Shown here piece after piece: positions 4,432 to 21,080 of a stretch of 21,080 nt of DNA. Source of the DNA: a virus; IMG/VR virus record IMGVR_UViG_3300020395_000133, positions 1 through 21,080 of that record; one strand, given 5' to 3'. Each line of letters opens with the position of its first letter. The stretch's first letter is position 1. Under the pieces are notes generated by a model, which worked only from the letters and a program-made list of their open reading frames with translations, was not told the origin of the DNA and ran no database searches. The translations under genes were made by a program, and so were the position numbers.

Positions 4432-4459
4432 ATTATACACGATCCAAGAGGGTTGTCAG
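4432..4459 (-). promoter_or_regulatory. Sigma70-type promoter for the structured RNA
   Basis: On the minus strand, CTGACA (4459-4454, five of six matches to TTGACA) and a perfect TATAAT (4437-4432) are separated by 16 bp. The promoter overlaps the last codons of the upstream methyltransferase. The predicted start, 6-7 bases after the -10 box, falls at the first paired bases of the RNA. This is the best host-type promoter in the window. Confidence 0.7.
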
Positions 4460-5401
4460 TCCATTATGTACCACTTTGTCAGTTGGCACATGATATTCTC
4501 TCACTCTCTGCTCTATTAAATGACCATAATCCTCGTGTAATTCGCACCCTAAGTAATACCTACCTAATGATTTTGCTACCATTGCAGTAGTTCCAGATCC
4601 CATAAATGGGTCAATGATAGTATCATTTAGTGCTGAACCTGCTTTAATACATGGGATGATTAATTCAGGTGGGAAAGTAGCAAAATGAGCACCCTTATAT
4701 GGTCTCTTAGTTATACTCCATACACTACGTTTATTCTTCTTTGGATATGATTTAGTGAGACCAGTATGAGGTGATAAACCTGTACCCTCATTGTGATATT
4801 TGCCTTTAGTTCTATCTCTTGTACCCCAATCTTTCGCTGGTTCTTTAATAGCATCATTGTCATAATAATAGTTCTTACTCTTACTTAAGAGGAAGATATA
4901 TTCATGTGCTTTAGTACATCTATCTCTTACACTTTCAGGCATTGGATTAGGTTTATGCCATATAATATCTTGCCTTAAGTACCATCCATCTGCTCGTAAT
5001 GCAAATGCTAACATCCAAGGAATACCAATTAAATCTTTCTCTTTTAGTCCCTCTAATTTGTTAGCACGTTTGTTACTATTAGTAGGTAAATCTTGTCTAG
5101 TCTCACTAACACTTTGCTTAGGGTAATTAGCACCCTTACCAGGACGATAGTTGTAATAACTATCACCTATGTTTAACCATAGTGTTCCATCTTCAGTCAA
5201 TATATTTCTAACTTCTCTGAATACTTTCACCATCTCATTAACATATTCTTCTGGTGATTGTTCTAAACCTATTTGATTATCTTCTCCACCATAATCTCTT
5301 AGTCCGTAATATGGTGGACTTGTTACACACATACGAGCACTATTTGGTAGAAATGCTGATAATGTCTTGCGACAATCTCCAAATAATATTGTATCTTTCA
5401 T
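4433..5401 (-). CDS. Site-specific DNA methyltransferase (beta-class, N6A or N4C)
   Basis: This enzyme transfers a methyl group from S-adenosylmethionine to an exocyclic amino group of DNA. The catalytic motif TSPPYYG (residues 27-33) precedes the AdoMet-binding motif DPFMGSG (264-270), which is the beta-class order. The segment between (MPESVRDR...KAHEYIF at about 154-170) is typical of phage and bacterial orphan methyltransferases of this type. At 322 aa it is full length. No nuclease gene lies next to it, so I infer an orphan enzyme that protects phage DNA or regulates genes. Target base and site cannot be read from sequence. It overlaps the 31-aa membrane peptide gene by ATGA. Confidence 0.92.
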   Translation of the reverse strand: MKDTILFGDCRKTLSAFLPNSARMCVTSPPYYGLRDYGGEDNQIGLEQSPEEYVNEMVKVFREVRNILTEDGTLWLNIGDSYYNYRPGKGANYPKQSVSETRQDLPTNSNKRANKLEGLKEKDLIGIPWMLAFALRADGWYLRQDIIWHKPNPMPESVRDRCTKAHEYIFLLSKSKNYYYDNDAIKEPAKDWGTRDRTKGKYHNEGTGLSPHTGLTKSYPKKNKRSVWSITKRPYKGAHFATFPPELIIPCIKAGSALNDTIIDPFMGSGTTAMVAKSLGRYYLGCELHEDYGHLIEQRVREYHVPTDKVVHNGLTTLLDRV

Positions 5402-7894: not shown

Positions 7895-7983
7895 AATAGT
7901 CCTCGATAAGTTTGTTTTAACTTCTGAAATTGCTTCCGTTTGGTGTAACTTCCACGAATCTCATTGGTAGTATTATATATCAT
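7879..7983 (-). CDS. Putative 34-aa basic peptide
   Basis: The ATG overlaps the stop of the methyltransferase (ATGA), and the ORF ends 16 bases inside the next gene. The product begins MIYNTTNEIRGSYTKRKQFQ and ends YRGLLCRKH, strongly basic with an amphipathic pattern. The region also holds a TATATAAT box that could instead be a promoter for the 372-aa gene. The two readings are not exclusive. Support is the coupled junction and charged, non-random composition. Confidence 0.45.
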   Translation of the reverse strand: MIYNTTNEIRGSYTKRKQFQKLKQTYRGLLCRKH

Positions 7984-8768
7984 TTTAATATAGAAGTCAA
8001 CCCTCCATTTATCCTATTTTCAGCAAACTTAACATAATCTTCATCTATTTCATACCCTATGTAACTCCAACCTAAATTATTTGCTGCTAATCCAGTACTA
8101 CCTGTTCCCATGAAAGGATCAAGAACTACACCACAATCTATGCCTGTTAGTTTAATACAATCCTCTGCTAATTTAACTGGAAAAGTAGCAGGATGTTTAC
8201 CACGCAATTCTTTACTATTAATAGTCTCATATGGTATGAACCAAGTATTACCTTTGTCCCTTAAATTAGGTTTGTTCTCAATCGTATTATTACCACGAAT
8301 ATTTGCTTCATAATATTCATACTTAACACCAACAGATAGTCTATCTATTTCTACATTACCATCTTTGGTAAAGTGAAACAAATTCTCCCAAGTAGGACAC
8401 AAATAGCGTTTACTATTGATAGGTTTAAAATGTCCACTCGTCTTGTTATTTACATGAATAGACTTAACCCAAACTATATTATTTTGTAAATTATATGTAT
8501 TTTTAATTGCAAACATGACCTCTAACCCTATCGTAGGATCTACATTTGAGTATCCCATATTAACAAATAGGTGACCATTATCTTTCAGTACACGTTTACA
8601 TTCAACAAACACATCTTCTATCCATGAGATATACTTATCTCTTGGTTTTTTATCATTGTATTTGTTATACTTAATGTTTAAATTATAAGGTGGTGATGTA
8701 ACAACAGCATCAACAGATTGATCTGCTAATTGTTTCATACCATCAATACAATCATCCAAATAAATCAT
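7980..8768 (-). CDS. DNA methyltransferase, beta-class (second copy, unrelated context)
   Basis: This is an AdoMet-dependent amino-methyltransferase of DNA. The catalytic motif TSPPYN (24-29) comes before the AdoMet motif DPFMGTGS (217-224), the beta order. At 262 aa it is complete. The open frame extends to 8828, but the ATG at 8768 has GGAG 6 bases upstream and leaves a 17-base overlap with the preceding gene. The target could be N6-adenine or N4-cytosine. It is the immediate downstream partner of a protein with a possible nuclease motif (8752-9216), so a restriction-modification pair is conceivable. It differs clearly from the methyltransferase at 4433-5401 outside the motifs. Confidence 0.9.
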   Translation of the reverse strand: MIYLDDCIDGMKQLADQSVDAVVTSPPYNLNIKYNKYNDKKPRDKYISWIEDVFVECKRVLKDNGHLFVNMGYSNVDPTIGLEVMFAIKNTYNLQNNIVWVKSIHVNNKTSGHFKPINSKRYLCPTWENLFHFTKDGNVEIDRLSVGVKYEYYEANIRGNNTIENKPNLRDKGNTWFIPYETINSKELRGKHPATFPVKLAEDCIKLTGIDCGVVLDPFMGTGSTGLAANNLGWSYIGYEIDEDYVKFAENRINGGLTSILK

Positions 8769-9216
8769 CACGATCTCCGAATGGAATTGATCCGTTTGTA
8801 TATTGTGTAAGATCAGATCCTTTAACAAATCTAACTCTTACTTCAGGAAATGATACTACATCTGTAAAGATATAAATCATATCCATAGCATGTTCCCATA
8901 GTTTCTCTTCATCAACTGATCTACCTGCACCTAACATAACACTAGGACAGAATTTAGCACCATGTCTAGTAAAACATTTAGCATCATACAGTTGACCCTC
9001 TACCAAATGATTGATATGGTCATATCCTTTACCATCTACAAATTCAAGACCTTCAAACCAATCTTCTAATTGTAATTCTAAGAATCCTGATGCTCTCCTA
9101 CCATCTGTGAATAGTTTATAAACTCTCTCTTGAGATAGTGTACCAAATGTAGCATCACACTCGAAAGTATAAGTATGATTCAAGATCACATCTTGCTTAG
9201 TTGGTCGCAATTTCAT
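8752..9216 (-). CDS. Conserved hypothetical, possible PD-(D/E)xK-like nuclease (154 aa)
   Basis: The frame can begin at TTG 9234, but the ribosome-binding AGGA abuts that codon, so I use the ATG at 9216. The product starts MKLRPTKQDVILNHTYTFEC. The segment GYDHINHLVEGQLYDAKCF (about 64-82) places an Asp (66), a Glu (73) and a DAK triplet (78-80), a spacing reminiscent of PD-(D/E)xK nucleases. GxxFCPS and VRVRFVKGSD follow. The family resemblance is by eye only. It overlaps the methyltransferase that follows by 17 bases, the layout expected for a restriction-modification pair. It could equally be an unrelated conserved phage protein. Confidence 0.75.
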   Translation of the reverse strand: MKLRPTKQDVILNHTYTFECDATFGTLSQERVYKLFTDGRRASGFLELQLEDWFEGLEFVDGKGYDHINHLVEGQLYDAKCFTRHGAKFCPSVMLGAGRSVDEEKLWEHAMDMIYIFTDVVSFPEVRVRFVKGSDLTQYTNGSIPFGDRDDLFG

Positions 9217-10925: not shown

Positions 10926-11546
10926 TTAGGACGGTTGTGTGCCACCTAGTATATTGTCATACTCCTTCTTCAATTCATCCTCCCAATTACCCTCTGGTAA
11001 TGATCTATTAATATCATTAATACACCACGACATTGGACCTCTACTTCTAACGTAATGTAAAAAACACTGTGCAAAATTCTCACCACTATACTTACCATTT
11101 CTCCAGTGTGGTGCTACACATCCCAGATATATCAGTGCATCTCCTTGATCTAATACTACATTAAACTCATTATTATTACGATAGTTTCTTATACCAAACT
11201 CCCACTCTTTATCTGATCCTAGATGTACAGTTAATGATACCTCACATGCAGGTCTATCTGTATGAGGATTTAAAAAAGCATTATGTTTATATAATCTCAT
11301 GTATGAATAAGTTGGAAATAATGATTCTCCAACTATATCTACCATGTTATGTAAGAGATAGAATAATAACTCTTGTGATGCTTTTGGTGACTGATAGTTA
11401 TAACAAGGTCCATGAAATTCATTGTCTAAGAAATGCAATCTAGTCTGACCAGTATCAACTAACTCACGATACAGACTATTTGCTAAGTCAACATGAACAA
11501 AGTTCTTAACTAATAAGAATCCATTATCTAATAACTGTGTGTTCAC
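10926..11546 (-). CDS. 2OG/Fe(II)-dependent oxygenase (206 aa)
   Basis: The iron site is visible as NPHTDRPACE (His95, Asp97) with the distal His147 in APHWRNGKYSGEN. The usual C-terminal 2OG-binding basic residue is less clear; the segment after the distal His reads FAQCFLHYVRSRG, a pattern I recall from a phage and SAR11 oxygenase group. The N-terminal 90 residues form the helical lead-in common to this fold. It is the last gene of the contiguous oxygenase block. ATGA overlaps the gene before it. Substrate unknown. Confidence 0.82.
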   Translation of the reverse strand: MNTQLLDNGFLLVKNFVHVDLANSLYRELVDTGQTRLHFLDNEFHGPCYNYQSPKASQELLFYLLHNMVDIVGESLFPTYSYMRLYKHNAFLNPHTDRPACEVSLTVHLGSDKEWEFGIRNYRNNNEFNVVLDQGDALIYLGCVAPHWRNGKYSGENFAQCFLHYVRSRGPMSWCINDINRSLPEGNWEDELKKEYDNILGGTQPS

Positions 11547-12196
11547 AACTCAATCGCTAAATTCAAAGGATCTTTTGATGTATCTCTATCTAACTTAGAG
11601 AACCAGAAATGATCCATTCCTTTCTGTGTTATTAAATCAAATGCAATAGTATATCTATCAGTATCTTCATATCTTAATGCTTTAACTGCATGAGGTAATG
11701 ATGATGGTGCAAGTGTTAATCTACCTTTCTTACTACCTATACCTGTCCATCCAACATAAGGTATATCATAATCAGTACCAATAAAATGATCTTGCATATT
11801 TAACACACCACTTAGAAATGCGTTCTCGTGCATTGCGTGTTGGTGTCTACCTATATTCATTCTTCGTTTAACTTTTATCTCTGGTTTCTGAGGATATACC
11901 CAACCTCTAACCCATATTCTTTCTTCTTTCTCTATGTGTAGAGAATTACAAAATGCTTCATAAGATGTTAGTATCATCTCTTGTAATTCTTTTACAGCAA
12001 ACCCTTCCCATTGAAATATATTATAATGTTCCCATCTATCATTATCAAATAATCCTTCTTCCTCATGTTTCTTAACTAAACCTAATAACTCATCAATTAA
12101 AACATCAGGTAATTCATCAACCCATAAAGATATATCAAATTCAGGTGCAAATGGATTATTACCTTTAGGTTGATTCCATCTATGTAAATGTGGCAT
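11543..12196 (-). CDS. 2OG/Fe(II) oxygenase-like (2OG-FeII_Oxy_5-like, 217 aa)
   Basis: The metal-binding segment is GRHQHAMHENAFLSGVLNM (His118, His120), followed by TLAPSSLPHAV (distal His169) and DRYTIAFDLIT (Arg181). The 'H.H......LSGV' pattern and 'R.(S/T)IAFD' end are hallmarks, by recall, of the 2OG-FeII_Oxy_5 group seen in T4-like phages. It shares its layout with the gene at 12887-13528, on the other side of the QueG-like gene. It overlaps that gene by 17 bases. Substrate unknown. Confidence 0.8.
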   Translation of the reverse strand: MPHLHRWNQPKGNNPFAPEFDISLWVDELPDVLIDELLGLVKKHEEEGLFDNDRWEHYNIFQWEGFAVKELQEMILTSYEAFCNSLHIEKEERIWVRGWVYPQKPEIKVKRRMNIGRHQHAMHENAFLSGVLNMQDHFIGTDYDIPYVGWTGIGSKKGRLTLAPSSLPHAVKALRYEDTDRYTIAFDLITQKGMDHFWFSKLDRDTSKDPLNLAIEL

Positions 12197-12890
12197 GAAT
12201 ACGTTCTCCGTAACGAGGGTTAATTTCGAGGATTCTTTTAGTCAACTCCTGTGAATAAGGGCAACTGTCTTGACATATCCTACAAATACTATCAAGATCT
12301 TTAAATGCTTCAGGAACATCTACAAAATTAGAACACTTCTCCCAATCAACAAGATCAAAGTTCATTGTACATCCCATAGGACATTTATATTCGCAAGGTG
12401 CATCACACCCAATACAATTACTATAGTGAGGTTCACCATCAATAACAATAGTATCATCAAATTTAGCATCAGTAAAGATTAGATCAATCTTATAATTCAT
12501 TCCAAATCTTTTATGAAATGCTAATGATGTTTTTGCTAATGTTGCTGCACCTGATCTAATAGCAAACTGTTTTCTATTTAATAGGTAATCATCATACCCA
12601 AAATTATAATCATATATTGTATTTAATCGTCTAATGATCTCTGGTAAGAAGTTATTCTTATAGTGGTAATCATATGCAACACGACTAAAAACATTCCATA
12701 CAATAACAGACTTACAAGTATTATCTAATTGGTAAGTCTGATTTAATGATTCTGGTTTACCTCTATTAAAATGATCTTGTGCTCTTTGTGTAACTAATTC
12801 AGGTGGTGGTGTAGTTACTGACAGATCATATATGAAAGGTATATCACCTATTACATTATCAATTACATCTCGAATATATTCGAGTTTCAT
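12180..12890 (-). CDS. QueG-like double [4Fe-4S] protein (divergent, 236 aa)
   Basis: Two ferredoxin-like Cys sets are clear: C159-x2-C162-x3-C166-x3-C170-P and C203-x2-C206-x3-C210-P, with C174 and C186 between them. Epoxyqueuosine reductase QueG has this arrangement after a cobalamin-binding domain. The part before the clusters (YDYHYKN at about 73-79 and the long SGAATLAKTSL segment) matches QueG only loosely. QueG proteins are usually about 350 aa with a C-terminal extension; this one lacks that extension. A B12- and Fe-S-dependent reductase is the best guess. It sits between oxygenases with overlaps at both ends. A 16-bp palindrome covers codons 3-8. Confidence 0.7.
   Translation of the reverse strand: MKLEYIRDVIDNVIGDIPFIYDLSVTTPPPELVTQRAQDHFNRGKPESLNQTYQLDNTCKSVIVWNVFSRVAYDYHYKNNFLPEIIRRLNTIYDYNFGYDDYLLNRKQFAIRSGAATLAKTSLAFHKRFGMNYKIDLIFTDAKFDDTIVIDGEPHYSNCIGCDAPCEYKCPMGCTMNFDLVDWEKCSNFVDVPEAFKDLDSICRICQDSCPYSQELTKRILEINPRYGERIHATFT
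12869..12884. repeat. Perfect 16-bp palindrome at the start of the QueG-like gene
   Basis: CTCGAATATATTCGAG reads the same on both strands and covers codons 3-8 of the QueG-like gene. It could form a cruciform or an RNA hairpin near the start codon, or be a protein-binding site. Confidence 0.6.
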
Positions 12891-13528
12891 AATTGAACCC
12901 AGTGTTCCTTTCTATCCTCGTAAATGTCCTCATTATATACTATCTCAGTAATAATGTCAAATGCTATTGATACTCTAAAATCATTACCATCATATGTGTC
13001 AGTATAATGTTCCAACCAATTAGGAAATAGTGTTACCTTACCTTTATCATTTGAGGATGAATATAACTTTTGATTATATGGATTTACATAATGAGTACTA
13101 GTTTCTATATCATCTAATTGTATATGTCCACCAAGATATGTGTATTCACTTGTCCAATGTTGATGTTGTTTTATCTTCTCACCTTTTCTCATAACATTTG
13201 CCCAACATTGAACATATATTTTATCTTCCCAATCATATCCAAGAGTTGTTATAAAATTATCATGTGATGATCTTATTACTTCTTTTAAAAAATATGCTTC
13301 TTTCCATTTAATTACATTATAACAATTAGATCTAGAAGTCATACTATTACATCCTAATCCAGTATTCCAATCACTTGTATATGGATTAGTGTTTATAATC
13401 TCTTGTTCTTTTGATAATATTATATCCTTAATATTCCTTACATCTACATTATTCTCATAGATGTTAAAATTAAATATAGGTGCAAACCTTGTCTTAGGTT
13501 CTTCATTTTCAAAGTTAATAATTTGCAT
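12887..13528 (-). CDS. 2OG/Fe(II) oxygenase-like (2OG-FeII_Oxy_5-like, 213 aa)
   Basis: The iron-site segment is IKQHQHWTSEYTYLGGHIQL (His122, His124). A distal His174 lies in LFPNWLEHYTD, and Arg185 in FRVSIAFDIIT is the probable 2OG ligand. It is the closest relative by eye of the gene at 11543-12196. Its N-terminal 60 residues differ, which suggests a different substrate. Its stop overlaps the ATG of the QueG-like gene (ATGA). Confidence 0.8.
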   Translation of the reverse strand: MQIINFENEEPKTRFAPIFNFNIYENNVDVRNIKDIILSKEQEIINTNPYTSDWNTGLGCNSMTSRSNCYNVIKWKEAYFLKEVIRSSHDNFITTLGYDWEDKIYVQCWANVMRKGEKIKQHQHWTSEYTYLGGHIQLDDIETSTHYVNPYNQKLYSSSNDKGKVTLFPNWLEHYTDTYDGNDFRVSIAFDIITEIVYNEDIYEDRKEHWVQL

Positions 13529-13530
13529 AA

Positions 13531-14139
13531 TTACATTGCCAAGAATTGACTCATTGAGTATCTACCCATACCAGGATTAAAGTCTTTCATAACTATGGGT
13601 GTGACTTCATGCCACATAATTGATGGAAATACCACCAGCGAATTATTTAGACAAGGTATTCTAAGTCTATGTTCTAATATTAAATCACCACCAGTATATC
13701 CTTTTGGTTCTTCATAGAAGAAAGTAATTGCTGTTATAACACAATCATCTACATGTGATTTATAGTAATCACCATTAGTATAATAATGTAGTTTAGTATT
13801 ATCTGAATTAGATCTTCTTACATATCTAAACATAGAGTGATAACACTCTAATAAATCAGTAGTCTCTTTCTTAAACAACTTACGATTTAGTTTTAATATG
13901 TCAGACTCAGATCGATCCTTATATACAACATCTAAGTGCATACCTTTACCAGATTTTAATACTACACCATTTGCTATTGCAGTACCAGGTCCATCTGGAT
14001 CTGTTGGATCTTTAAATCTATCAATAGATGATAAAAATCTCAACTCATCAAATATTGAACTCAATTCTATATCTGAGTAAAAATTAGGTATTAATATAAC
14101 TGGTAACCCAGAAGGTGTATCAAAAAATATATTTGACAT
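13531..14139 (-). CDS. 2OG/Fe(II) oxygenase, prolyl-hydroxylase-like (202 aa)
   Basis: A full triad is visible: YYKSHVDDC (His129, Asp131), FPSIMWHEVT (His177) and GMGRYSMSQF (Arg193). The segment GYTGGDLILE is the 'GGxL' strand typical of prolyl-4-hydroxylase-like proteins (2OG-FeII_Oxy_3 group). All catalytic residues are present, so activity is likely. It overlaps the unrecognised gene upstream by 20 bases. Substrate unknown: protein, glycan and small molecule are all possible. Confidence 0.85.
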   Translation of the reverse strand: MSNIFFDTPSGLPVILIPNFYSDIELSSIFDELRFLSSIDRFKDPTDPDGPGTAIANGVVLKSGKGMHLDVVYKDRSESDILKLNRKLFKKETTDLLECYHSMFRYVRRSNSDNTKLHYYTNGDYYKSHVDDCVITAITFFYEEPKGYTGGDLILEHRLRIPCLNNSLVVFPSIMWHEVTPIVMKDFNPGMGRYSMSQFLAM

Positions 14140-14482
14140 TATCTATTTCCATAGTATTAGACCATCTAAAGACGTATGCTCTAAAGAACCTCATCTTCTT
14201 TGGTCTTAAATCAAATTTAAATTTACCTTCACGATTAACAACTTCAAGACAGTAATGATATAAATTACCTGTCTCTTGACATACACATGATACAAAATCA
14301 TTGTGTGCCTCTATCTCACAATCAAATATTTCACTAGCATGTTCTAATTCACATACAATCCCAAACTCATCTTTCAATATATTCTGAATAGATACTGCCA
14401 TATCTGTCAATGATACCTTTTCAATATCAGTATCAAAGAACTGTTCAAATGTATATAATTCTCTGGGATTAATTAATTGCAT
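14120..14482 (-). CDS. Unrecognised 120-aa protein inside the oxygenase block
   Basis: It starts MQLINPRELYTFEQFFDTDI and has four Cys (in VCELE, FDCE, SCVCQE) and several His between residues about 40 and 80, then a basic, aromatic C-terminus (RPKKMRFFRAYVFRW). No HxD...H pattern is present, so I do not count it as an oxygenase. It is joined by TAATG to the gene before and overlaps the gene after, so it belongs to the same transcript. It may be an accessory or substrate protein, by position only. Confidence 0.7.
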   Translation of the reverse strand: MQLINPRELYTFEQFFDTDIEKVSLTDMAVSIQNILKDEFGIVCELEHASEIFDCEIEAHNDFVSCVCQETGNLYHYCLEVVNREGKFKFDLRPKKMRFFRAYVFRWSNTMEIDNVKYIF

Positions 14483-14958
14483 TAGAAATAATTAATATTA
14501 ATATTTGCTCTAAATTGTTGGTCAGTGCAATTAGTACTATTATGAGGATCTTGAGGATTAAAGAATACTATTCTATTTGCTCTTGATTCCACTTTCATAC
14601 CTTTAATGCTAGTATGTCCATCACATGTATTCAGAGATAATACTGCTGCTTTATGATCGAAATCATAATCAGTATGTGGTGTATGATGAACTAAAGTATC
14701 TGTTCTAGGATATAGATTTACCTTTACTCTAATTAATGATCTTGCATTAATAACAAACTTCAATGCTTCAGCAATCCAATACTTATTACTACATGGTCTC
14801 TCTTGGTCGTAAAGCATATGGCAGAAGTAAGCATCCTTTTCTTCACCCTCACCAGATATATCTGGTATACAAAACCAAGGAGTTGAATCCTTATCAAAAA
14901 TATCATCTTGTATTTTCTTAAATAATTCCTTATCTAAGAAGTCATTTACACATTCCAT
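14482..14958 (-). CDS. Short 2OG/Fe(II) oxygenase (158 aa)
   Basis: The complete triad fits in the C-terminal half: HTPHTDYDFDHKAAVLSLN (His95, Asp97), FFNPQDPHNST (His139) and QQFRANININYF (Arg150). It is short for the fold but the core is whole. HxD and Arg suggest an active enzyme. GGAG lies 8 bases before the ATG, within the end of the upstream gene. No specific subfamily is recognised. Confidence 0.8.
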   Translation of the reverse strand: MECVNDFLDKELFKKIQDDIFDKDSTPWFCIPDISGEGEEKDAYFCHMLYDQERPCSNKYWIAEALKFVINARSLIRVKVNLYPRTDTLVHHTPHTDYDFDHKAAVLSLNTCDGHTSIKGMKVESRANRIVFFNPQDPHNSTNCTDQQFRANININYF

Positions 14959-14960
14959 TG

Positions 14961-15479
14961 TTAAATCTCCAGAAATTCATCATTGAGTGGCATAGATTTA
15001 TCTTTACCATACCACATTGATATAGTATATCTATCCCGTTTCAAAACATTACTTACCCCATGTCTAAATTCCATTCCATCAAAATATACTGTCCTACCTG
15101 ATAATGGTTGAACATCTACACCTTCAACTATAGTATGCCCACCAATATAATCATCATTGATATATGTAATTGATGCACCAGTTGTTGTAGGTCTTGCCCT
15201 ATCGTGATGAAATCCCTTACATGCACCACAAGGATACTTAACTATCTCTACATTCTGCAGTACAGAAAATCTATTGTCATGGTATACTCTCCTCTTAACA
15301 TCTTTTACTAATTCATATATCTTTTTATAAGTATCACATTCTGTCTTAACTCCAATACCACCTCTATCCATACTAAGAACTCTTGTTTCATCCCAGACAT
15401 ATGTTTTAAGAAGATTATCCTTAAAGAACTGAATAATCTCTTCTTCACATGGTATTACAACTTGTGAGATATAAATCAT
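14961..15479 (-). CDS. 2OG/Fe(II) oxygenase, prolyl-hydroxylase-like (172 aa)
   Basis: The triad is GFHHDRARP (His91, Asp93), VYFDGMEFRHGVS (His140) and KRDRYTISMWY (Arg150). The middle reads TGASITYINDDYIGGHTIVE, the expected double-strand and 'GG' turn. The open frame extends to 15503, but I choose the ATG at 15479 because it overlaps the upstream stop (ATGA) and GGAG lies before it. Active by residue content. Substrate unknown. Confidence 0.83.
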   Translation of the reverse strand: MIYISQVVIPCEEEIIQFFKDNLLKTYVWDETRVLSMDRGGIGVKTECDTYKKIYELVKDVKRRVYHDNRFSVLQNVEIVKYPCGACKGFHHDRARPTTTGASITYINDDYIGGHTIVEGVDVQPLSGRTVYFDGMEFRHGVSNVLKRDRYTISMWYGKDKSMPLNDEFLEI

Positions 15480-16093
15480 CTGAATGGATCTCCTAAATTC
15501 CAACTAACAAGAGAATACCTTGTTCCTTTAGTAACAGGTAGTACTCTATGATATACAAATGATGGGAATACAACTAATGATCCTTGTGTATTCAATTCTT
15601 TAGCAATACATTGATCTTTCCTATTATAATGGAATTCAAGATCACCACCTTCAAACTCATTAGGATCATTTAATAGTAATGTAGATGATAGTTTCCTATA
15701 CTTACCCTTCATATTTTCATGTTCATCATCACCGTACACATAATGATGTTGGTCTGGATGCCATTCATAAAACTGTCCTTCATTATAAATGGTAAACTGC
15801 ATATTCTCAGTATAATCCCACTGAAAATTCCAACCTGCTGACTCATTTGCTTGTTGAATGAGTGGTTTAATTAAATTATGAACCCAAGGTTCATCTATCC
15901 ATGAAATATGTGAATTTCTAACCTTTAAGAGATCATTCATCTCCTCTTCAGTATAATTGTCTGTTCCCTTAGTATCTGCTCTATTAACTTCACCTTGTCT
16001 AATATTAAGATCCTTTCCTATATCAATAATACGATCACATATCTCAGGTTTTATAATGCCCTGAAAATACCAATAAGTGTAATTTAAGTTCAT
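15476..16093 (-). CDS. 2OG/Fe(II) oxygenase, PKHD-type hydroxylase (205 aa)
   Basis: This is the most canonical member of the array: YEWHPDQHHYVY (His112, Asp114), LNDPNEFEGGDLEFHY, GSLVVFPSFVYHRV (His182) and GTRYSLVSWNLG (Arg192). The pattern matches PKHD/PiuC-like hydroxylases and the prolyl-4-hydroxylase-like genes often found in cyanomyoviruses. The ribosome-binding GGAGG forms the last codons of the upstream gene. An active enzyme is very likely. The natural substrate in phage is unknown. Confidence 0.9.
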   Translation of the reverse strand: MNLNYTYWYFQGIIKPEICDRIIDIGKDLNIRQGEVNRADTKGTDNYTEEEMNDLLKVRNSHISWIDEPWVHNLIKPLIQQANESAGWNFQWDYTENMQFTIYNEGQFYEWHPDQHHYVYGDDEHENMKGKYRKLSSTLLLNDPNEFEGGDLEFHYNRKDQCIAKELNTQGSLVVFPSFVYHRVLPVTKGTRYSLVSWNLGDPFR

Positions 16094-16705
16094 TTAACCT
16101 CCATTAAACTCTGTGTAATCAAATCCTGGTACCTTATAAGTATACCACCCTGTAGTTATATACTTAACTTGAGTTGGTGATGGTATACCTCTATGTGTAT
16201 GTGTCCAATCACAGGGCCAAATGACAGTTAATCCTTTTTGTGGTTGTATCTTTAGACCTTGATGATACCATTCAGTTTCACCACCATCAGTTACATCATT
16301 TAGATATGTCATAAATGTTAGATGTCTAGTTCCTACTAAATTTTTATAAGTTGATCTTTCAGTATGCCAACCAAAAAATCCTTCATCAGGTTTATACTTT
16401 TGTATATTAAAATTGGTATTTAAACCCCAAGAACTGTGATTAGTAGAACTCCAAGGATAACGTTCGGTATAATTATCGCATACTTTTCCTAACCTGTCAA
16501 GATATATTTGTATCCTCTCATCCTTAACCCTTGGTATAACTGCTACATCAGTTGAAACTTTATACTCTTCATTAATTCCTTGCCCAACTTGTCCTGGTCC
16601 TTGATCTGGACTGTCATTAAAGTACGAGATCAATCCATCACAAACGTTATCTTCAATATACCATCCAGCAATAAAACTATTAGATGGTATTATATGCTCT
16701 TTCAT
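16094..16705 (-). CDS. 2OG/Fe(II) oxygenase, prolyl-4-hydroxylase alpha-like (203 aa)
   Basis: The metal site is FFGWHTERSTYK (His114, Glu116), so it uses HxE rather than HxD. The distal His is 169 or 171 in DWTHTHRG. Lys181 (PTQVKYITTGW) occupies the place of the usual Arg, as in collagen-type prolyl 4-hydroxylases. TYLNDVTDGGETEW is the typical 'GGxT' strand. HxE is tolerated in some family members. It overlaps the following degenerate paralogue by ATGA. Substrate unknown. Confidence 0.87.
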   Translation of the reverse strand: MKEHIIPSNSFIAGWYIEDNVCDGLISYFNDSPDQGPGQVGQGINEEYKVSTDVAVIPRVKDERIQIYLDRLGKVCDNYTERYPWSSTNHSSWGLNTNFNIQKYKPDEGFFGWHTERSTYKNLVGTRHLTFMTYLNDVTDGGETEWYHQGLKIQPQKGLTVIWPCDWTHTHRGIPSPTQVKYITTGWYTYKVPGFDYTEFNGG

Positions 16706-17214
16706 GCTAACGTAAAATGTATGAGAATATTTTCATCACCTAATTGTGATGTCATACCATATTTAACATCACTAGGGAATAATATAATTGATCCAGTAAA
16801 CAGTTTAACCTCTTGAAAATTATCACCTTGGAAAAATTTAATAGAATCATCCATACATGCTTTGACACAAAAAATCCCAGATACAACAGATCTAGGAAAA
16901 CTTCTAGGAAATGTATAATCTCCTTTCTTACTTATTTCAGTCCAAATATTTTTAAATGTAATATCTTCTTTATATCCAACTTGTCTTGCAAATGCTTGTG
17001 AATGGTCAAATATTAATGGTCTTAAACCATCAAGTTCAACCACTTCAAATAAATTCTTTCTAATACCGCATGTAGAATCTACATTCAGAATATCAGTACG
17101 AATAGTTCCTACCTTCTCAAGTGCTTGCTTGATATTTCTTTCGTAGTCTGGTAGTTTTTCTAGTAGTAAATTCGGTTCAAAGTAGATTGCTTTCGCAAAC
17201 CATGATGTAATCAT
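16702..17214 (-). CDS. Degenerate 2OG-oxygenase-like protein (170 aa)
   Basis: The framework of the 2OG-FeII_Oxy_5 group is clear: IWTEISKKGDYTFPRSFPRS, VVSGIFCVKA and SIILFPSDVKYGM. Where relatives have His-x-His-Pro, this one has PRSFPRS. Where the distal His is expected there is VKYG, and the C-terminal Arg is replaced in ENILIHFTLA. All iron ligands therefore appear lost while the reading frame is intact, so it may be a structural or regulatory pseudo-enzyme. It opens the oxygenase block directly after the virion gene at 17230, with no Shine-Dalgarno sequence seen. Confidence 0.75.
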   Translation of the reverse strand: MITSWFAKAIYFEPNLLLEKLPDYERNIKQALEKVGTIRTDILNVDSTCGIRKNLFEVVELDGLRPLIFDHSQAFARQVGYKEDITFKNIWTEISKKGDYTFPRSFPRSVVSGIFCVKACMDDSIKFFQGDNFQEVKLFTGSIILFPSDVKYGMTSQLGDENILIHFTLA

Positions 17215-17801: not shown

Positions 17802-18851
17802 TTACTGATACTTATACTTAACAATTACAATACCCTTACCACCATTACCGCCTTTTGGTTCTGGATATTGACGAGGATCTTGGTCAGCAGCACCGCCACC
17901 GCCTCCACCGAGACCGTCAGTACCTGCATAACCACTTTCAGTAGGAGACAACGCACCATTACCGCCACCACCTGATCCACCATTAGGGTTGTGAGGACCA
18001 CCTGGATAATTAGCACCACCGCCACCACCTGCATAAGTTACCGCAGAACCGCTAATTGAGTTTGCAGTTCCATTTCCTCCATTTGCAGGTCTGGAGTTTG
18101 GTCGTGTATATCCATCTTCTCCTGCTTGTGAGTTACCACCTCCACCACCAGAAGTTCCGTTCTGTGAAGATGCACCTCTACCACCAGGATACCCTTGACC
18201 AGGTACTCCTGTTCCTCTAGGTTGGTTATATCCGTCACCATCAGTTCCAGATCCACCACCAGATCCACCAGGTTGTCCTGGTTTATCCTGTTGACCTCCA
18301 CCACCACCGCCAGTAGCAGTAACAGCAGATCCAAAAGTACTATTTCCACCAGGTTGTCCAGCAGAGTTACCAGTTCCTCCAGTTCCTCCACCACCAACAC
18401 TTACAGGGTATGATGTAGCATTAACAGTATAATTATATCCACCAGCAGCAAGCATACCACCAGCACCACCACCTCCACCAGATCCAAAGTTGTTGAAGTC
18501 ACCAGAAGCGAAACCGCCTCCACCTCCTCCACCAGCAACGACTAGGTAATCAACTTTACCATTTGCTTCATCACCTGCACCAGTGACTGCAAATGTTGCA
18601 GTATTATTAAAGGTATGGATTTTATAATTTCCACTCGTAGACTCAGTTCCACCTGACGCTTGAATAAATGCCTCAGATGATCCAATAGCAGATTTCCATT
18701 GAGTTCCATCCCAAACATCAACTGATCCATCAGTTGAGTTATAAATCATTTGTCCCGCAGTAGGCGATAAAGCATCCCGTTGTGTCTTTGTATAAGACGG
18801 GAGATTTAGCGTACTTGTGACATTAAGCGTTCCAGCATTTACTGTAGACAT
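17802..18851 (-). CDS. Glycine-rich tail adhesin (349 aa)
   Basis: Residues 1-60 form a phage-fibre lead-in (TLNLPSYTKTQRDALSPTAG, MIYNSTDGSVDVWDGTQWK). Residues about 105-335 are a glycine-rich domain of GGGGGGG, GGAGG and PGGxG motifs, introduced by VDYLVVAGGGGGGG and ended by GKGIVIVKYKYQ. This is the glycine-rich domain of phage receptor-binding adhesins, thought to form a polyglycine-II-type lattice with recognition loops. It likely contacts the host surface. It is preceded by a perfect TATAAATA late promoter at 18893-18886. The repetitive sequence may recombine. Confidence 0.88.
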   Translation of the reverse strand: MSTVNAGTLNVTSTLNLPSYTKTQRDALSPTAGQMIYNSTDGSVDVWDGTQWKSAIGSSEAFIQASGGTESTSGNYKIHTFNNTATFAVTGAGDEANGKVDYLVVAGGGGGGGFASGDFNNFGSGGGGGAGGMLAAGGYNYTVNATSYPVSVGGGGTGGTGNSAGQPGGNSTFGSAVTATGGGGGGQQDKPGQPGGSGGGSGTDGDGYNQPRGTGVPGQGYPGGRGASSQNGTSGGGGGNSQAGEDGYTRPNSRPANGGNGTANSISGSAVTYAGGGGGANYPGGPHNPNGGSGGGGNGALSPTESGYAGTDGLGGGGGGAADQDPRQYPEPKGGNGGKGIVIVKYKYQ

Positions 18852-18885
18852 AGTTAGGCATCAAATATGGTCTCTGGTTCTGTTG

Positions 18886-18893
18886 TATTTATA
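18886..18893 (-). promoter_or_regulatory. Late promoter TATAAATA
   Basis: TATAAATA on the minus strand is an exact match to the T4 late box. It lies 35 bases before the ATG of the glycine-rich adhesin. No later box of this type was seen down to about 10000, so it is the best candidate for driving the adhesin, the 188-aa protein and the oxygenase block. Confidence 0.7.
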
Positions 18894-18897
18894 AGGA

Positions 18898-19098
18898 TTA
18901 TGGAGTGTATGATGAGTCTTCAACAACTAAACATCCTTCTCCACCATCAAATTCTGCAGAATGTGCATAGTCATGTAGTTTTCTATCTGCATAGACATCA
19001 CTCCAGACTCCGTTGCCACAACAGTAAACATCATGGTCGGGAGCAGATGATCCAGTATTTGCAGCAGCACCTGATTTTTTATAAGCGAAATAGGGCAT
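18898..19098 (-). CDS. Small virion-type protein (66 aa)
   Basis: It starts MPYFAYKKSGAAANTGSSAP and contains CCGNGVWSDVYADRKLHDYA, ending GGEGCLVVEDSSYTP. Ala/Ser/Gly-rich and likely extended, it resembles small tail-region proteins of marine myoviruses. A late-type box (AATAAATA at 19127-19120) lies just upstream. No domain is recognised. Confidence 0.65.
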   Translation of the reverse strand: MPYFAYKKSGAAANTGSSAPDHDVYCCGNGVWSDVYADRKLHDYAHSAEFDGGEGCLVVEDSSYTP

Positions 19099-19119
19099 TT
19101 TATTCTACCAATATAAAGT

Positions 19120-19127
19120 TATTTATT
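19120..19127 (-). promoter_or_regulatory. Candidate late promoter AATAAATA
   Basis: AATAAATA matches the relaxed NATAAATA box of T4-like cyanophages. It overlaps the stop of the zinc-ribbon gene and precedes the 66-aa gene by about 20 bases. Confidence 0.5.
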
Positions 19128-19506
19128 ACCATAGATCAATAGGACATTTCATTCCTGGTACTCTCCATTTAAGTTCCATGTAACATCCACATTTCTGACA
19201 CTTTTTATATATGCTGTCAGGTTTCATAAGAAACTTACAATTCATACAAATTGCCTTCTTGGTTGCAACATCTATAGCAAACTGTGACTCTAAGGAGTCA
19301 ATTTTTTTCTGCGTAATTTTTTCGAGTTTATTCTCCTGTAACCTATAAACACTCTGACGCATATCTTCAGCAAATGCCTCAGCATTACTTTCCATAATAC
19401 CTTGGTCTATCATATGATTATAAGCAAGCATTCTGATTTCTTTTGCCACCAAGTCAATAGGTATGCCAGAATATAGCATATCCTCAGATAAATTCGCAAA
19501 ATCCAT
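19126..19506 (-). CDS. Small protein with C-terminal zinc ribbon (126 aa)
   Basis: Residues about 86-126 carry CMNC (Cys87, Cys90), CQKCGCYMELKWR (Cys103, 106, 108) and GMKCPIDLW (Cys121), a two-knuckle zinc-binding motif. The preceding 80 residues are helical (ESNAEAFAEDMRQSVYRLQE). I recall similar 'CxxCGCfm..K......CP...W' proteins in T4-like cyanophages, located in tail regions and of unknown function. It is placed tightly after the fibre gene (4 bases). Confidence 0.75.
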   Translation of the reverse strand: MDFANLSEDMLYSGIPIDLVAKEIRMLAYNHMIDQGIMESNAEAFAEDMRQSVYRLQENKLEKITQKKIDSLESQFAIDVATKKAICMNCKFLMKPDSIYKKCQKCGCYMELKWRVPGMKCPIDLW

Positions 19507-19510
19507 TACA

Positions 19511-20344
19511 TTATATTACTGCTACCCAATACCTTAAAAGAGAAGTTCCACCATAATTATCATTTCTAATTCTATCCGATCCACTACATGCACCACCATT
19601 ATTATCTTCTATGTGTTCTGTGCATCCAGTACCTTCACACCAACATACAACAGCACCACCACTAGCATCCCAAGATGATGAGTTAAATGTATAACTTATA
19701 TTAGATGGATAACCAGATGAAGTTGTATTAATAAATGAAGTCTGCCATAATGTAGCAGATTGTGCTTCAGTTGCCCATTGTCCTAAATCAGTATCTTCAT
19801 AACAAACCCAGTTGACATCATTCAACCACCCTCTACCAGATACATTTTGATCTATCCACCAACCACTTGTACTATTAGTTCCAAAGGTTGTTGTCTCAAT
19901 AGAATCTAAGTATCCATATTGATTGTAACTACCATATGAATATGAGTTGTGTCTACTTACCAATGCCCAAGCATTAGTAGAACCTATACTACCACCAGCA
20001 AACGAATCAAACTTAACATATACTTGTTGGACTCCTAATGAACCCGTATCAATATAATATATCCCGTCACTAGTTATACCAGCATCTCTAAGAGCTTTAG
20101 GAGAAGAAGCAGGGTTAGCAGCAGTTCCTGGTACTGCTGCAGTTCCTCCAGCAGTGCTTACCCAATTATTAGCAGAAGCATCAGCATTTGGTGTGTAAAC
20201 ATACAAACTACCAGCAGTGTTAGTTGATTTAACATAACAAATATCACCCACTGTTCCTTGAGGTAAGTTCTCAGCAGGATGTAATGGTAAATTAATACCT
20301 ACGGTTGAACTTGCGGTTTCTATAGTTAATTTACCAGATGCCAT
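19511..20344 (-). CDS. Tail-fibre protein with fibrinogen-like domain (277 aa)
   Basis: Residues about 80-120 read ASSPKALRDAGITSDGIYYI followed by QVYVKFDSFAGG and NAWALVSRH. This matches the start of fibrinogen-related (FReD) domains ('SCxEL...G..SGVY.I..' then '..YCD....GGW.L..R'). The C-terminal part has GAVVCWCEGTGCTEHIEDN and further Cys pairs. The N-terminal 78 residues are a typical fibre attachment segment. FReD-like domains bind surface glycans in other systems; here a receptor-binding role is inferred. Preceded by a late promoter at 20376-20369. Confidence 0.8.
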   Translation of the reverse strand: MASGKLTIETASSTVGINLPLHPAENLPQGTVGDICYVKSTNTAGSLYVYTPNADASANNWVSTAGGTAAVPGTAANPASSPKALRDAGITSDGIYYIDTGSLGVQQVYVKFDSFAGGSIGSTNAWALVSRHNSYSYGSYNQYGYLDSIETTTFGTNSTSGWWIDQNVSGRGWLNDVNWVCYEDTDLGQWATEAQSATLWQTSFINTTSSGYPSNISYTFNSSSWDASGGAVVCWCEGTGCTEHIEDNNGGACSGSDRIRNDNYGGTSLLRYWVAVI

Positions 20345-20368
20345 GTTATACTATAACTCCTATGCTTA

Positions 20369-20376
20369 TATTTATA
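20369..20376 (-). promoter_or_regulatory. Late promoter TATAAATA
   Basis: An exact TATAAATA on the minus strand lies between the LamG-like gene and the fibre gene, about 25 bases before the fibre ATG at 20344. A GGAG is seen further down the leader. Confidence 0.65.
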
Positions 20377-21080
20377 CTCCGAAACGAGTTCTCGTCTTAG
20401 TATAATGTTCTAATACTTTTGCATCACTCCACACTTCTTCAAACAAGAAAAGTTGAGCAATATCACCCTCATAGTAAATACTGTTTCTACTACCATTATT
20501 ACTTGTTGCTTCAGAACCATCTCCTATAAATCCCCAACGTCTTGAACCATTTCCAAAGTATGAGAAACTATAACTATGGGTTCCATCTAAAACACCATCA
20601 AGATAAAATCTTATGTTGTTACTACTACTAGCATTATTAACAGTACAAACACCAAAATGCCAACTACCATCATTTGCAGGTGTGTTACTTACAATATCAT
20701 AACAACAAGTGCTGTTAGAACTACCAGCAAATTGTAGTTTGCCATGCTGACCAATGTTCCAACCTATAACTTCAGATCTATCCCAGTCATACCATGACCA
20801 GTTATCAAAGTCATAACCTCCACCTGAGTTTGGTGATCCATATGAAGTTCTAAACCAACAACCTTGTGTAAATTGATATAACCGACCATTATTATTAGGA
20901 CCATGTGATCCACTACTACCAAAATTTAAGTCTCTTATCCAACCATACTGGTTAGATCCATTAAAGTTCCAATATCCAATAGATCCATCACCACCACTTA
21001 CTGCTGAAGTAAAGGTAGGACTATTAACCATTTCACAATTAGCATTACTTAAATTAGGATGAGCTTTCTTAGATAACCAT
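20372..21080 (-). CDS. LamG/concanavalin-like tail protein, 5' end outside window
   Basis: The frame stays open to the window edge beyond the first ATG at 21031, reading WLSKKAHPNLSNANCEMVNS. The visible part is therefore the C-terminal section of a longer protein. The domain pattern is typical of LamG-like phage proteins: MVNSPTFTSAVSGGDGSIGY, WNFNGSNQYGW, DGSWHFGVCTVNN, NIRFYLDGVLDG and the closing DIAQLFLFEEVWSDAKVLEH. Such beta-sandwich domains bind carbohydrates and serve in host recognition. A start at 21031 is possible but less likely because the frame upstream continues the same domain. It carries many Asn/Ser/Gly/Trp residues. Confidence 0.85.
   Translation of the reverse strand, partial: WLSKKAHPNLSNANCEMVNSPTFTSAVSGGDGSIGYWNFNGSNQYGWIRDLNFGSSGSHGPNNNGRLYQFTQGCWFRTSYGSPNSGGGYDFDNWSWYDWDRSEVIGWNIGQHGKLQFAGSSNSTCCYDIVSNTPANDGSWHFGVCTVNNASSSNNIRFYLDGVLDGTHSYSFSYFGNGSRRWGFIGDGSEATSNNGSRNSIYYEGDIAQLFLFEEVWSDAKVLEHYTKTRTRFGV

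Follow-up and report, generated by a model that had tools for sequence, protein, structure and literature searches.

What does a small iron-sulfur protein do when its gene is wedged between two oxygenase genes in a cyanophage? The window, as we call the whole stretch of 21,080 nucleotides analysed here, is IMG/VR record IMGVR_UViG_3300020395_000133, positions 1–21,080, taken as one strand; it is a portion of a T4-like marine cyanophage whose closest named kin are Synechococcus phages S-SM1 and S-RSM4 (Kyanoviridae). All genes discussed below lie on the minus strand. The gene at 12180–12890 has an ATG start and an open frame and encodes a QueG/RdhA-like [4Fe-4S] reductase of 236 amino acids (phrog_33749). 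Its placement between two similar oxygenases, pointed out in the first-pass annotation, holds on closer inspection: it shares 4 bases with the upstream gene (12887–13528) and 17 with the downstream gene (11543–12196), and the phrog_81/PF13759-like products of these two neighbours carry an HxH motif and are 27% identical to one another. PF13759 matched the upstream product P0003 at E 3.6e-11 and the downstream product P0002 at E 9.2e-5, the latter under the Pfam cut-off, with phrog_81 at E 2.2e-11. The three genes belong to a wider block (10926–17214) of nine oxygenase-like genes, the reductase and one 120-aa gene of unassigned kind (14120–14482); ahead of the block, 17802–21079 holds the gene for a glycine-rich protein of fibre type (Gly_rich_2, phrog_2295) and three others. 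We propose that the protein is, on balance, probably a minimal stand-alone class III cobalamin/[4Fe-4S] reductase on its own phage branch, working by the mechanism proposed below on a substrate other than epoxyqueuosine-tRNA.

Sequence comparison points to QueG as the nearest relative. The PHROGs match is a family of unassigned function (phrog_33749, E 7.9e-129), and the family members in S-SM1 (SSM1_058) and S-RSM4 (SRSM4_134), about 70% identical and in identical gene order, are annotated 'hypothetical protein'. Pfam returned sub-threshold matches only, the best of them ferredoxin domains, and a search of a defence library with the reductase gave no match. A PDB search with the single window sequence placed QueG on top (5d6s, E 3.2e-4, residues 73–218), and a profile of 25 phage proteins found QueG 5d6s at E 9.8e-7 and Bacillus subtilis QueG 5d08 at E 0.0029. 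The profile match to QueG spans residues 73–220; both profile matches reach well past the cysteines, and the next ones, ferredoxin-like, have E values of at least 0.29. A plain ferredoxin, one of the outcomes that the first-pass annotation had named as fatal to its proposal, was rejected on this extent of the QueG similarity and on the sub-cut-off scores of all Pfam ferredoxin matches. The features described here are not a product of chance, given that the residues are kept in relatives down to 42–43% identity and that dN/dS of the gene is 0.05–0.39 (nine pairs, the top value coming from the closest pair).

The fold agrees with this assignment. By homology and in both structure models, residues 1–151 (12438–12890) make up a nitroreductase-like module of the cobalamin-binding type, shared with the folds of QueG, RdhA and CblC; homology assigns residues 152–213 (12252–12437) to a two-[4Fe-4S]-cluster domain, 3' of which lies a segment at 12183–12251. 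Model 1 was built from phage sequences only and is thus independent of QueG (mean pLDDT 57; the N-terminal half largely confident, the iron-sulfur part unmodelled). In Foldseek, QueG or RdhA took the first 35 of the best 50 rows (E 0.01–0.4), and in VIA, QueG, RdhA and CblC took the first 27 of the best 50 (top Z 9.1, rmsd 5.2, 173 residues), with FMN nitroreductases at Z ≤6.2; a single RdhA row (8q4h) fell to 5.8, and tail proteins of phages, which are unrelated, reached 6.4. Model 2, built on a 53-row alignment that held QueG sequences and hence dependent on QueG, was of higher quality (pLDDT 79, pTM 0.81; iron-sulfur block ~60–79). Its best match was QueG (5t8y, E 6.9e-7; VIA Z 13.2, rmsd 4.2, 206 residues), followed by RdhA (VIA Z 11.4, rmsd 4.0, 198 residues) and, at lower ranks, CblC (Z 8.3), CblD (6.5) and FMN nitroreductases (≤5.0). 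A fold unlike that of QueG, another outcome named beforehand as fatal, did not emerge from either model. An FMN nitroreductase was rejected, as its Z scores in either model fall under those of nearly all corrinoid-binding relatives. The modelled succession of a nitroreductase-like module and then a two-[4Fe-4S] ferredoxin domain corresponds to the class III order described in PMC4646009. We consider the assignment to this superfamily and fold almost certain.

The two cysteine sets in QueG order that had first drawn attention to the protein are borne out by alignment. C159, C162, C166 and C170 form CxxCxxxCxxxCP, followed by C186 and by C203, C206 and C210 in CxxCQxxCP, and all eight align one-to-one with C184, 187, 190, 194, 210, 236, 239 and 243 of S. 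thermophilus QueG (StQueG), with one residue more between the second and third cluster cysteines in the phage protein. All eight recur without exception in the 23 phage rows, the 30 cellular QueGs and the 5 RdhAs aligned. By homology, the predicted ligand sets are C159, C162, C166 and C210 for one cluster and C170, C186, C203 and C206 for the other. PMC4646009, which lists the StQueG cluster ligands, also assigns D100, Y101, H102 and D130 to a conserved polar side within the active site. The alignments put phage D74-Y75-H76 (D74-Y75 at 12666–12671) on StQueG D100-Y101-H102 and phage D100 (12591–12593) on D130, making Y75 the equivalent of the class III catalytic tyrosine. All 23 phage rows have D74 and Y75, which 27/30 and 29/30 QueG rows share, respectively, and D100 is present in all 53. 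Across these 53 rows (23 from phages, 30 from cellular QueGs), D100, A110, G114, G130, P171, Q207, P211 and the eight cysteines never vary. The DYH histidine, by contrast, is kept in 6/23 phage rows versus 27/30 QueGs, and N132 and K134, present in 23/23 phage rows, replace W/F/Y and F/V/L/N in the 30 QueGs.

K134 (12489–12491), a feature beyond those raised in the first-pass annotation, occupies the place of the catalytic Arg/Lys of RdhA (PceA R305, NpRdhA K488). The column holds Lys in 23/23 phage rows and K/R in 5/5 further RdhAs and 0/30 QueGs. K134 aligns with PceA R305 (chain numbering checked by Y246 and N272 of PMC4646009), and comparison of the NpRdhA K488Q variant in the PDB with wild type puts the change at the K134-equivalent position, four past the glycine. 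The surrounding stretch reads FGMNYKIDLIFTN in most phage rows (the window's version ends TD) versus FGPNVRLTKVFTN in PceA. The related phage proteins have 58 invariant columns, K134 among them, and the meaning of K134 rests on this RdhA comparison. In RdhA, a conserved Y-K/R dyad transfers the proton, according to PMC10463259, and the phage protein appears to have such a dyad in Y75 and K134; the RdhA sequence alignments place the Tyr off by one or two columns, and its equivalence to the RdhA Tyr rests on a structural statement in PMC4646009.

The dyad, with surroundings of K134 closer to PceA than to QueG, would fit a reductive dehalogenase of the phage that works on some halogenated metabolite. 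We nevertheless regard that reading as very improbable: Pfam Dehalogenase (PF13486) matched none of 25 phage members (E ≤10, subject to HMMER filters), the PDB profile search that found QueG had no RdhA among its matches, and the setting offers no known halogenated substrate. A neighbouring 2OG halogenase was considered and rejected, since none stood out among the block's oxygenase-like proteins, eight of the nine being positive and the ninth negative in a scan that covered the motifs HxD/E and HxH.

Is the protein then simply a QueG? The first-pass annotation had read it as QueG-like, and of that reading the fold, the iron-sulfur order and the cobalamin-type module stand; the phage proteins fall short of a true QueG in the QueG model score, in the C-terminal domain and, for most members, in the DYH histidine. 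The missing C-terminal extension, already remarked on from the sequence, is evident from the 25 residues that follow the last Cys-Pro, compared with at least 60 in 38/39 cellular rows and 49 in the remaining row. NCBIfam TIGR00276 (QueG, cut-off 200 bits) scored 17.2 for S-SM1 and 12.6 for S-RSM4 and found nothing in four further records, that of the window among them. A tree was calculated from 23 phage, 30 QueG and 5 RdhA rows. All 200 bootstrap replicates (100%) unite the phage proteins on one branch, whose stem measures 5.17 changes per column; the RdhA proteins are likewise united in 100%, on a stem of 4.26. Of the two trees built, the second sets a short Oscillospiraceae protein (L128) beside the phage stem, weakly supported (88/65); the program flagged a risk of long-branch attraction there, and the placement carries no weight here. 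Recent capture of a host QueG was rejected, as the phage clade stays outside the eight cyanobacterial QueGs. The RdhA-like stretch around K134, the departures from QueG and the long separate stem together suggest that the phage proteins constitute a third family and no trimmed QueG.

These comparisons also bear on whether the protein could be a diverged, shortened auxiliary QueG that completes queuosine in host tRNA during infection. QueG is its best match in sequence and fold, D74, Y75, D100 and the cluster ligands are retained, and cyanobacterial QueGs have a fairly short tail themselves, 64–86 residues past the last Cys-Pro in eight rows. Set against this are the low TIGR00276 scores, the departures at the DYH histidine and at N132/K134, the position outside the cyanobacterial QueG clade, and the ordinary QueG carried by cyanobacterial genomes. 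The phage proteins are moreover acidic (median net charge −8, versus −2.5 for QueGs; pI 5.0), a charge that does not favour RNA binding but is compatible with it. The partner genes whose presence elsewhere in the genome had been suggested as a check did not appear: neither S-SM1 nor S-RSM4 nor the two or three long contigs searched held a match to TGT, QueA or QueC (PF01702, PF02547 and PF06508; 4, 5 and 5 records, controls positive, the IMG/VR records being possibly fragments). A phage queuosine/7-deazaguanine pathway was rejected on the absence of these three families, which were the ones searched; the host may supply TGT, QueA and QueC. We therefore give an auxiliary QueG little credence. 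The earlier suggestion of action on tRNA or a queuosine-type base thus finds no support in the QueG-specific histidine, the C-terminal domain, the curated score or the search for pathway genes, and a substrate other than tRNA is very likely.

The frames inspected in cellular genomes belong to the known families. Patterns specific to the phage proteins found no copies in cellular genome contigs; a wider pattern found at least 80 loci, of which the 39 inspected are QueG-type frames. Across 386 cyanobacterial genomes there were 6 weak matches (of four inspected, three are QueG and one RdhA-like), and a plasmid search gave a single weak QueG match. PF13486 matched nothing in 291 cyanobacterial genomes, where the controls likewise gave none. 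A 158-aa RdhA-like frame (L193; E 1.4e-23 to PceA) was observed in a cyanobacterial genome. Separately, a 5.2-kb viral contig (L188, 3249–4574) carries a 442-aa frame joining an apparent phage fibre N-terminus to a host-type QueG, either a chimeric assembly or a real fusion.

For a minimal class III reductase, the preferred reading, the mechanism would run as follows. The N-terminal nitroreductase-like module would hold a host corrinoid base-off, in marine picocyanobacteria pseudocobalamin, and electrons would pass from ferredoxin through the two [4Fe-4S] clusters to the cobalt. Cob(I)alamin could then attack or reduce a carbon bearing oxygen (epoxide, hydroxyl) or halogen, with Y75 donating a proton, aided by D100 and K134. 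Family membership is what points to reductive loss of oxygen or halogen as the chemistry. The substrate might be a small or protein-bound product, possibly from the co-encoded oxygenases, rather than epoxyqueuosine-tRNA. Class III enzymes bind the corrinoid base-off and are fed via two [4Fe-4S] clusters, as stated in PMC4646009, and PMC7585037 describes the same nitroreductase-like, two-cluster plan. Every element of it that can be read from sequence is present in the phage protein. As to corrinoid supply, Prochlorococcus makes pseudocobalamin (PMC10547690), and cobS is among the cyanophage-specific core genes in PMC3037559. We expect base-off binding to tolerate the lower ligand of pseudocobalamin. 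By analogy with these enzymes, corrinoid use by the phage reductase is likely.

A corrinoid-binding protein might instead process or re-activate the cofactor, in the manner of CblC or of corrinoid-activating proteins, for B12 enzymes of the host. In the fold comparisons, CblC and CblD rank next after QueG and RdhA, and one contig of 199 kb has two suggestive genes within 6 kb, one of CobS type (phrog_249, E 8.7e-133) and one of a peptidase family that matches cobalamin biosynthesis weakly (3.3e-6). Replication/recombination-like genes lie between and around them in that contig, so that the nearness may be incidental, and the invariance of the QueG/RdhA Tyr and Asp, together with a ferredoxin domain that CblC lacks (PMC4646009), makes a processing role most unlikely.

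We examined 57 reductase loci, many of them near-copies of one another. The gene sits within the oxygenase block in 48/57, and in every block locus with upstream sequence (46/46), the reductase gene shares 4 or 16 bases with a preceding gene of PF13759 type. The downstream oxygenase overlaps in 41 of the 48 block loci, the other 7 ending within the reductase gene or at most 162 bases after it, and the arrangement is kept down to 55% identity (L180). The nine non-block loci include one between gp46-like and sugar-epimerase-like genes (L038), five after a gp47-like gene (L046–L050), two after a DNA polymerase gene (L040, L041) and one after a clamp-loader-like gene (L083), these names being readings from sequence with family support for some only. 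The 199-kb contig, whose copy is 43% identical, has no ortholog of the upstream oxygenase (best 24–31% identity). A PF13759 oxygenase lies within ~3 kb in the L038, L081/L082 and L084 contigs as well; this nearness carries little weight, because genes of this kind abound (S-SM1 has 5 matches and the 199-kb contig 13) and these are not orthologs of the window's neighbours. Since the most divergent relatives are away from both flanking oxygenases, the reductase can do without those partners, which argues against a substrate made by exactly those two enzymes. The trio is conserved across cyanomyoviruses and absent in the most divergent relatives, and a shared pathway is plausible. The substrate and its link to the oxygenases are our guess; that neighbouring oxygenases make it is possible, though doubtful.

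The same fixed adjacency would suit a protein that has lost cobalamin and serves in electron transfer or iron handling, keeping the iron of the neighbouring oxygenases reduced, as would two predicted [4Fe-4S] clusters and sub-threshold ferredoxin families as the best Pfam matches. A pure carrier, however, needs no invariant Y75, D74, D100 and K134, and the N-terminal module is kept and ranks with corrinoid-binding over FMN-binding relatives. 2OG oxygenases, moreover, generally have no need of a dedicated reductase. On these grounds we consider a carrier unlikely. A bolder version of the reductase proposal holds that a virus-only third family removes oxygen installed by the neighbouring oxygenases from a protein or glycan, and not from tRNA or an organohalide, so that oxidation coupled to B12-dependent reduction would tailor the phage's fibre proteins or a molecule of the host; taken as a whole, it is decidedly unlikely.

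Several observations concern the oxygenase block and its surroundings in their own right. The flanking PF13759-type proteins (11543–12196 and 12887–13528) have an invariant HxH, the usual 2OG oxygenase motif being HxD/E (26 rows each), and the 12887–13528 product has a third invariant His, H174; a three-His metal site is possible. The phrog_81-type protein at 16702–17214 has lost the histidines that bind metal in its relatives (no His is invariant over 20 aligned rows) and may be a dead oxygenase retained as partner or scaffold. PHROGs labels the genes at 14482–14958, 14961–15503 and 10926–11546 'DNA endonuclease V', 'DNA endonuclease' and 'ferrochelatase', as do S-SM1 and S-RSM4. All three lie inside the block and encode HxD motifs, and the 14961–15503 product matches a 2OG oxygenase family (6.6e-13), the 14482–14958 product weakly; the labels look wrong. 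The Gly_rich_2 fibre-type gene at 17802–18851 (E 1.3e-17) is one gene from the block here and in most block loci, and S-SM1 and S-RSM4 have an annotated tail fiber gene ahead of theirs; the Gly_rich_2 product is a candidate oxygenase substrate. PMC3037559 reads cyanophage oxygenases as acting on 2OG levels or in DNA repair. Elsewhere in the window, two DNA methyltransferase-like genes with an SPPY motif (4433–5401 and 7980–8828) were read by eye.

The literature searched, most subscription papers lying outside it, held no description of a phage member of the QueG/RdhA superfamily, and PMC6884629, a 2019 survey of viral 7-deazaguanine genes, reports no QueG homolog in the viruses analysed. The 2015 QueG structure paper (PMC4646009) considered more B12/[4Fe-4S] families possible but difficult to recognise, as no cobalamin motif marks them. 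The phage proteins are a concrete candidate for one, a new family with a known fold and, presumably, known cofactors. A 236-aa protein with the Asp of QueG and the Lys of RdhA could reveal the smallest working class III enzyme and the basis of substrate choice, and the many oxygenases of cyanophages gain in it a testable partner.

Among known systems, CblC/MMACHC shares the nitroreductase-like corrinoid-binding module and is not known to have the catalytic Tyr/Asp set. QueG (S. thermophilus 5d6s; B. subtilis 5d08/5t8y) is closest in sequence and fold and shares the eight cysteines and, facing the cobalt, the Tyr and both Asp, at 17–26% identity in the alignment of phage proteins and QueGs. The phage protein lacks the C-terminal domain that supplies substrate-side residues in QueG, as well as the loop of ~22 residues preceding DYH, an absence that might weaken the predicted cobalamin pocket; where QueG has the DYH His and an aromatic/aliphatic pair, the phage proteins have mostly replaced the His and carry N132/K134. 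RdhA (PceA 4uqu; NpRdhA 4ras/6zxu) shares the fold core, the two [4Fe-4S] clusters and the Tyr and Lys/Arg dyad, and likewise has a short loop ahead of the last CxxC. The phage protein is far smaller than RdhA, without its extensions, a visible twin-arginine signal or a Dehalogenase Pfam match, and its CxxCQxxCP motif is of the QueG type, unlike that of RdhA. The phage active site would thus combine the Tyr and Asp of QueG with the Lys of RdhA, and by its residues appears as RdhA-like as QueG-like.
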